A stretch of 64,000 nt of DNA from an uncultured SAR86 cluster bacterium (GTDB taxonomy: Bacteria > Pseudomonadota > Gammaproteobacteria > Magnimaribacterales > D2472), in the NCBI GenBank assembly GCA_902557575.1, contig CACEAR010000001.1, forward strand, positions 1-64,000. The letters are read 5' to 3'. This document shows, piece after piece, positions 54,115 to 55,782 of the stretch. Below the pieces are notes generated by a model. That model worked only from the letters and a program-made list of their open reading frames with translations, was not told the origin of the DNA and made no database searches. The translations under genes were made by a program, and so were the position numbers. Within the stretch, counting starts at the first letter, position 1, and each line of letters starts with the position of its first letter.

Positions 54115-55782
54115 ATGTCATACTTTGTGAAAAGGAAGAATAAACAATATCAAATTGAAAAAGGTCTTTTGCTGTTTACTCAGCCTAAGTCACCCTACTT
54201 CTATGGGAAAATAAGACATAACAAAAAATATCTGACTAAGTCATTTGCTCCTATTACTGATAAACAAGAAGCAATATATGAACTTTATAATTGGAGAAGT
54301 GAGCTTTTGTCAGAAAAAGATAAATCAGTAGCTGAGCCAAATAATCCAAGATCGGAATATGTTGATTTTAAAGAGATAGATAATGATTTTCAGTTCTTAG
54401 ATGTTGGTAGATTTGATCCACAAAAAAAAGATATAGAAAGTAGAAAAATCCATTTTGTTGAGATTTATGGTGAATACAATCAAACTCAGGCTGCAAATCA
54501 GGCTCACAGATGTCTTGATTGTGGTAATCCTTACTGTGAATGGAAATGCCCTGTTCACAATTACATACCAAATTGGTTAAAACTCGTTAATGAAGGGAAT
54601 ATTCTTGAAGCTGTTGAGCTATGTCACCAAACAAATAGTCTTCCAGAAGTATGTGGCAGAGTTTGCCCCCAAGACAGGCTTTGTGAAGGTGCTTGTACAT
54701 TGAATGATGGATTTGGTGCTGTCACTATTGGGTCTATTGAAAAGTATATAACTGATAAAGCTTTTGAGATGGGATGGAAGCCAGATTTATCAAATAGATC
54801 ATGGTCTGGGAAAAAAGTTGCAATTGTGGGAGCTGGTCCTGCCGGGCTGTCATGTGCTGATGTTCTAACAAGAGCTGGAGTTAGGAGTCATGTATTTGAT
54901 AAGCATGAGGAAATTGGTGGCCTGCTAACTTTTGGTATACCGGAATTTAAACTTGAAAAAAATGTGGTTAAAAAAAGGAGAAAAGTTCTTGAAGAAATGG
55001 GAGTGAAATTCTTCTTAGGTAAGGAAATAGGGGCTGATATAAATTTCAAAGATATCTATAAAGATTATGATGCTGTCTTCCTGGGTATGGGCACATACAC
55101 ATCGCTTGAGGGCGGTTTTAGAGGTGAAAAACTTCTAAACGTTCACAAGGCAATTGACTATTTAGTTGAGAGTAATAAGAAGCTTCTTGGAATTAATCAA
55201 AAAAAAGATTCCTTTATCGATTTAAAAGGAAAGGATGTTGTTATTCTTGGTGGAGGAGATACTGCTATGGACTGTAACAGAACAGCTATCAGGCAAGGAG
55301 CTAAATCAGTTACGTGTATTTACAGAAGAGATGAGGATAATATGCCAGGATCTAGAAAAGAAGTAATCAATGCTAAAGAGGAAGGAGTGAATTTTGTTTT
55401 TAATAGTCAGCCAATAGAAATATTAGGAAATGACAAAGTTGAGGCTGTCAAAACTATATCTACCAGGCTTGCCGATCCAGATCATAACGGCAGGCGAGTA
55501 CCAATCCCAATTACTAACTCAGAAAAAATCTTTAATGCAGATGCAGTAATTGTTGCTTTTGGCTTTCGCGCCAGCCCACCAAAATGGGCAGAAGATTATT
55601 CAATTAATTTAAAACAAAATGGTCTTGTTGATGTTGATTGTCAGAATGAACTTGATTTCCAAACAACAAATCCAAAGATATTTTCTGGTGGCGATATGGT
55701 CAGAGGATCTGATCTTGTGGTGACAGCAGTATGGGAAGGAAGAGAAGCAGCAAAAAGTATTATAAAATACGTCCATGACTGA
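54115..55782 (+). CDS. gltD: glutamate synthase small subunit with an unusual N-terminal extension
   Basis: NAD(P)H-oxidising flavoprotein that feeds electrons to GltB. 555 residues, about 80-90 more than usual. Residues from about 91 ([12 protein letters not shown]) on follow normal GltD: FeS cysteines 133, 136, 141, 145 and 180, 184, 190, 194; FAD motif GAGPAG (239-244); and the NADPH site [22 protein letters not shown]. Residues 1-90 are extra: the segment [20 protein letters not shown] followed by [18 protein letters not shown] looks like the N-terminal region of tyrosine recombinases. No alternative ATG lies near the canonical start. It overlaps hemE by 8 bp. Confidence 0.95.

Follow-up and report, generated by a model that had tools for sequence, protein, structure and literature searches.

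The glutamate synthase small subunit GltD of an uncultured SAR86 cluster bacterium, encoded in the 64,000-nucleotide stretch of DNA analysed here (the window), carries an N-terminal head of the type found in tyrosine recombinases. From patterns of sequence conservation we infer, with a probability of about 0.72, that this head binds a repeated site just upstream of gltD, so that the headed enzyme would autoregulate gltB and gltD, as integrases and PutA do.

A recombinase-type head on GltD

In the list of open reading frames, gltD is an unbroken frame of 555 aa (54115-55782, forward strand), and its product belongs to the GltD family, scoring 730 bits against TIGR01318 (cutoff 483) over residues 92-553. 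As this alignment begins at residue 92 and that of the PDB GltD structure 6s6s at residue 94, about 90 residues precede canonical GltD, and they are in frame and free of stops, as an earlier note on this DNA had described. On the forward strand, the frame comprises a head of about 60 residues (54127-54309, residues 5-65 counted from the ATG at 54115, as matched by head profile A1), a variable linker of low pairwise identity (54310-54384) and the GltD core, an Fe-S flavoprotein (54385-55782; TIGR01318, Fer4_20 and Pyr_redox_2). Divergent from gltD, and with a putative operator region common to both genes, lies gltB for the large subunit (49651-54075, reverse strand, open reading frame of 1474 aa), named by its sequence and position and not by family search. 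The next gene downstream of gltD, hemE-like by its look, begins within the gltD 3' end with an overlap of eight bases (window positions 55775-55782). The genome of the window comprises 1,164,714 bases in 15 contigs.

The earlier note's statement that no alternative ATG lies near the canonical start holds between residue 1 and the core, though other start codons do exist there: a GTG at residue 5 and TTGs at residues 19 and 65. In 34 of 40 relatives' loci, the distance from the nearest ATG to the residues KNKQ downstream is 1-6 codons; the window's own locus (L001) and its close relatives L002-L005 and L007 have a GTG three codons and an ATG seven codons before KNKQ. Because the codon homologous to the GTG at 54127 is an ATG in L006 and L034, and because the ATG at 54115 sits within a conserved DNA repeat, the true start of gltD is probably the GTG at 54127.

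Profile searches supported the note's proposal that the head is of the tyrosine recombinase N-terminal type. Outside SAR86, all seven head-profile matches were recombinase-like N-termini, four of four in a class search (369 genomes, E ≤ 0.001) and three of three in a phylum search (398 genomes, E ≤ 0.003). Pfam Phage_integrase was identified in six of them (108-134 bits); the seventh, L103, has a weak SAM-like Pfam match only and was judged a recombinase by eye. Within SAR86, one recombinase-like protein matched (G014, E 5e-12), with Pfam SAM-like domains only and a catalytic motif recognised by eye. Profile A1, which contains the window head and matches 54130-54309 (E 1.2e-32), hit these eight recombinase or recombinase-like N-termini at E 5e-12 to 0.0017, six with Phage_integrase and two (G014 and L103) with SAM-like domains only, which relates the head to the recombinase N-domain superfamily. 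The GltD frame itself has no catalytic recombinase domain: its remainder is GltD, and the Pfam families listed (25 of 29) do not include Phage_integrase. Searches with Pfam and NCBIfam gave no match on the GltD head alone, PHROGs returned a single family, of unknown function, at E 0.14, and no PDB sequence matched the head profile. Phage records searched by tblastn with two heads likewise gave none, and viral contigs searched with the head profile and the G014 protein returned pattern matches among which no relative was confirmed. Against DUF6538 (PF20172), the GltD head stayed below the gathering score of 27 bits; 4 of the 16 heads in profile A1 match this family weakly (best E 0.004).

The predicted fold of the head consists of strands and one helix (E11-15, E18-23, E26-35, E38-43, H50-71), with pLDDT block means of 86-93 over residues 11-60; prediction of full-length GltD was poor (pLDDT 54). 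In structural comparison, ranks 2-4 of the VIA list were the integrase arm-type domains 3rmp, 3jtz and 3ju0, with Z scores of 6.2, 6.0 and 5.6 (below 8), a model-based ranking that would be weak if taken alone, and rank 1 was the unrelated protein MMOD at 5% identity; Foldseek of the head model returned nothing significant (best E 0.72, an AP2 domain). In profile similarity and in its predicted strands and helix, the head resembles the arm-type N-domains of HPI, P4-like and HAI7 integrases, DUF6538 being a second flavour.

Across the SAR86 order, the head profile matched 109 of 203 genomes, weak fragments (E 0.002-0.009) being left out of the counts. Of the families of this order, whose names (Suzuki/D2472 and others) follow excerpts of PMC11582366, f1 appears to be D2472 and f4 CHAB-I-7. 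The comparison with close relatives suggested in the note placed the head in 94 of 107 f1 genomes, exactly the 94 with a strong gltD match (one of which, G083, has a gltD broken in the assembly); in the other 13 f1 genomes both the head and a strong gltD match are absent. Presence of the head on gltD in all 94 is far beyond chance. In f4, no head was found on gltD in the 13 genomes with a strong match (open reading frames of 467-500 aa; starts read for 10 of the 13), and in f2 and f3 the gltD search reached more distant GltD homologues only.

The head dN/dS was 0-0.08 in 10 of 12 pairs and 0.17 in one, with one not computable; one locus pair was counted twice (L013 and L037 are identical in sequence) and several dS values were saturated. 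Corresponding values were 0.01-0.06 for the GltD core and 0.04-0.47, where computable, for the linker, and mean pairwise identity was 0.72 for the head, 0.27 for the linker and 0.79 for the core. The gltD head is under purifying selection and is not a decaying relic, which disfavours the neutral leftover of an integrase gene that the note had considered.

A conserved repeat between gltB and gltD

Between the two divergent genes lies a direct repeat with a 10-bp period, the putative operator TGTCATAC-TA-TGTCATAC (54106-54123, not assigned to a strand), whose general form upstream of gltD is TGTCATAC-nn-TGTCATAC. At least two copies of GTCATAC within 150 nt were present in 34 of 36 distinct headed gltD upstreams (38 of 40 loci), a set in which some sequences come from very close relatives, compared with none of 10 unheaded f4 orthologues. 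Of these ten, nine lack GTCATAC and one (L243) contains it once in its 1.3 kb. In the headed set, the repeat was kept in these 34 upstreams though the surrounding intergenic DNA differs. The tandem occurs once in the window, where the chance mean is 0.09 with up to two mismatches, and 54106-54123 is the only place with an exact copy in the 464 kb examined from this genome. A tandem of the gltD type with two mismatches at position 400239, shortly after the start of another gene, and a type-B pair between convergent genes (G000:C1:175402) were both taken as chance. A sigma-70 scan gave one promoter-like match, which did not rise above shuffled sequences.

Heads and repeats on other genes

Judged by profile matches, recombinase-type heads recur on several proteins besides GltD, in two flavours: type A, as on gltD, and type B, which matches Pfam DUF6538. 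The host proteins were found through head similarity and not picked by function. Type A is also present on the Rieske protein PetA of f4, where 14 genomes match the profile. Head and PetA read in one frame in 11 of these; in G183, G194 and G202 the headed petA runs off a contig end or is divided between frames. A petA match was present in 20 f4 genomes, and the six of these outside the profile-matched set have a short unheaded petA. Two genomes carry type A on indolepyruvate oxidoreductase (IOR), and five others have shorter IOR homologues (open frames of 1086-1180 aa) without a head-profile match.

Type B was found on five of six tested Phage_integrase proteins, with one of these scoring under the cutoff, and on the PetA of the window's own genome, whose head (30.2 bits in one search and 27.9 in another, cutoff 27; net charge -3) is the sole DUF6538 match in that genome. 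This petA (G000:C1:537272-538138; L232:1273-2139) also has two GGGTAC sites upstream. Further type B hosts are a GltD-like Fe-S flavoenzyme (28.2 bits), the cysteine desulfurase IscS in some f2 genomes (26.7 bits, just below the cutoff), a protein of about 150 aa with a C-terminal hydrophobic stretch (29.9 bits; a tail anchor by eye) and KorA of G368, a gammaproteobacterium outside SAR86 (35.6 bits). In G368, a KorB-like gene follows the gene for KorA with its very similar head (L231:8210-10363), and in three SAR86 loci (L180, L182 and L183) a KorA-like gene, so named by eye, comes next after the headed GltD-like gene. The proteins of about 150 aa in f1 (L172-L177, L185 and L191) consist of a DUF6538 head, a low-complexity linker and the hydrophobic stretch.

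By family search, the hosts include Rieske_proteo, IscS, the indolepyruvate ferredoxin oxidoreductase family and 2-oxoacid:acceptor oxidoreductase alpha. Pfam Fe-S domains are present in GltD, the GltD-like protein and PetA and in neither the indolepyruvate enzyme nor KorA, so the Fe-S link of these two rests on ferredoxin partnership and family knowledge. In PetA, the Tat-type N-segment PF10399 lies at residues 100-136 or 90-126, downstream of the head. Since the head precedes this segment, it should remain cytoplasmic.

DUF6538 matches (E ≤ 0.01) occurred in 124 of 203 SAR86 genomes, exactly one in each, and 76 of the 124 exceed the Pfam cutoff. By size, f3 has 24 GltD-like frames; f2 has 23 GltD-like and 12 IscS-size; and f1 has 39 small, 11 GltD-like and 9 PetA-size. 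The remaining six are G179 (a cut GltD-like frame of 482 aa), G072 (GltD-like, at a contig edge) and four recombinase-like frames, of which only G041 was tested against Pfam. Frames actually read were 2 of the 12 IscS-size, 8 of the 39 small and at least the head of 3 of the 9 PetA-size.

Most headed gene groups carry a repeated motif just before the gene. In counts of repeats within 150 nt upstream, for which motifs were chosen after viewing the sequences, and in which related loci are not independent, TGAACA preceded petA in 11 of 11 headed f4 loci versus 0 of 6 unheaded ones of the same family (Fisher 8e-5). The comparisons for GGTAC in the petA-g1 group (3 of 3 headed versus 0 of 3 unheaded, Fisher p 0.1) and for ACACAG before IOR (1 of 2 versus 0 of 3, p 0.4) are too small. 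GGTACA preceded GltD-like genes in 20 of 20 cases in f3, 19 of 23 (15 of 19 distinct) in f2 and 3 of 11 in g4, an upstream repeat was present in two of two headed IscS loci, and the small DUF6538 gene had [ACG]GTACA in all eight upstreams, with a mean of 4.2 copies. The unheaded IOR locus L247 and the f2 GltD-like loci L208-L212 were left out as not found or too short.

An unbiased test for repeated 7-mers was significant in 43 of 65 headed upstreams (three gltD rows being duplicates); the background in the window's genome was 13 of 181 genes, one of them gltB through the same repeat. It was significant in 15 of 20 gltD upstreams (with a best word other than the operator in L012, L023 and L046), in all 10 of petA-f4, 2 of 3 of petA-g1, both of IOR and all eight of the small gene. 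GltD-like genes gave 2 of 12 (f3), 1 of 4 (g4) and a further 3 of 3, and neither IscS (0 of 2) nor KorA of G368 (0 of 1) reached significance. Among unheaded upstreams, 1 of 18 was significant, with three unheaded IscS counted apart; two of those three were significant, and the upstreams of these IscS genes share DNA with a headed gene.

Three recombinases with related N-domains (G014, G041 and G463) have repeats before their own genes, and others are without. For G014, five TAACACA copies lie between the recombinase-like gene and tRNA-Phe; its motif shares ACAC with the petA-f4 and IOR motifs, and the gltD motif does not resemble it. In the G014 island (L085:2143-4268), the recombinase-like gene adjoins tRNA-Phe (4193-4268), and a methyltransferase-like gene (by eye) follows. 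Upstream of the SAR86 recombinase G041 are two GGTACA (p 0.0015), and in a 60-residue tree its N-domain clusters with the heads of PetA-g1 and the small proteins (support 0.73). The G463 recombinase, from another family and adjoining tRNA-Ser, has two GGTACAC (p 0.004). Among the seven DUF6538 frames outside enzyme fusions that have a clear start (L196 and L206 were excluded for want of a proper start), paired GGTACA was absent in five, three of them Pfam-confirmed recombinases and two shorter frames. As G041 and G463 have such pairs and five others have none, the motif accompanies the domain in some cases and not universally.

Autoregulation and its alternatives

Because a conserved repeated site sits just before gltD, the headed enzyme probably controls its own production, and of the two fates that the note had offered for the head, relic or route to DNA, the conserved upstream repeats favour the second. 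The head would descend from the N-terminal arm-site-binding domain of a tyrosine recombinase, captured along with its cognate tandem site or followed by acquisition of the site now between gltB and gltD. Fusion of the 5' end of a self-repressing integrase gene to an enzyme gene would yield an autoregulated enzyme in one step. With two heads placed one helical turn apart on the site, headed GltD would exert feedback on the transcription of gltB and gltD; given the position of the site at the gene's start, repression is the likeliest effect. GltD assembled with GltB and carrying its Fe-S clusters may be less free to bind, and expression would therefore track need; both repression and the gating of binding by assembly or cluster state are speculative. 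Similar arrangements may have arisen repeatedly on other Fe-S-linked proteins in SAR86.

Against autoregulation stands the net negative charge of the PetA head in the window's genome; moreover, another regulator may be what recognises the repeats, and the head could instead be a protein-protein docking module for Fe-S or ferredoxin partners, with upstream repeats that belong to unrelated regulators. We regard this as rather unlikely. The hosts named by family search are indeed Fe-S or ferredoxin-linked enzymes or IscS, and head residues are strongly conserved within GltD and differ between hosts; yet docking leaves unexplained why the repeats accompany the head and are missing in gltD and petA orthologues that lack it, and why GGTACA pairs precede two DUF6538 recombinases and most DUF6538-headed genes.

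Far less probable is that each fusion is a leftover integrase gene end, arm sites included, joined to the next gene and now functionless. Head and sites do resemble an integrase gene 5' end as in G014, and such a capture is a likely origin, but the low dN/dS of the head and the retention of the repeat amid differing intergenic DNA speak against the absence of a present function. Slightly less probable still is an untranslated head, with a start near residue 65-90 and conservation that reflects a DNA or RNA function: GTG and TTG codons in head and linker would permit it, but synonymous change exceeds amino-acid change, and downstream of the head no start codon is common to all loci.

Autoregulation by headed GltD would have precedents among integrases. 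In the parts of PMC2951348 consulted, IntS of KplE1 represses its own promoter, which its sites overlap, and P4 Int exerts negative control over its own gene by binding DNA directly; the product there is a recombinase, whereas here it is an Fe-S enzyme. GltD shares with some tyrosine recombinases the short repeated sites beside the gene and differs from them in that its head is joined to a metabolic enzyme, the catalytic recombinase domain being absent. PutA, according to excerpts of PMC5293562, is an enzyme autoregulated through a different domain. A PutA-like arrangement, with a DNA-binding domain on the enzyme and an operator at its own gene, is suggested for GltD by the sequence, although the domain of PutA is a ribbon-helix-helix and its switch is proline-dependent, whereas GltD has a recombinase-type domain. 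In BzdR, an enzyme-derived domain is joined to a DNA-binding domain (PMC3602430, in part), and, unlike headed GltD, BzdR has lost enzyme activity. ALOG proteins, as described in a portion of PMC3537659, recruited a recombinase N-domain as transcription factor; they are plant factors derived from a different recombinase domain than the GltD head. Our literature search found no paper mentioning DUF6538 and none joining an N-terminal extension of glutamate synthase or GltD with DNA binding, and among the papers matched for SAR86, integrase and Fe-S, none mentions SAR86 in the text available. The present analysis offers a possible function for DUF6538 and supplies short predicted operators suited to binding assays.

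More tentatively, and at somewhat less than even odds, SAR86 bacteria, with their small genomes, may have repeatedly grafted recombinase heads and cognate sites onto Fe-S enzymes and IscS, the head being a portable module that moves between hosts and each headed protein reporting its own cluster or assembly state to its promoter. Among the 38 f2 genomes searched, 24 have a GltD-like gene, and an IscS-size DUF6538 frame was present in 12 of the 14 without this gene versus none of the 24 with it. In both f2 genomes that were read (L178 and L187), the frame encodes IscS with a DUF6538 head.
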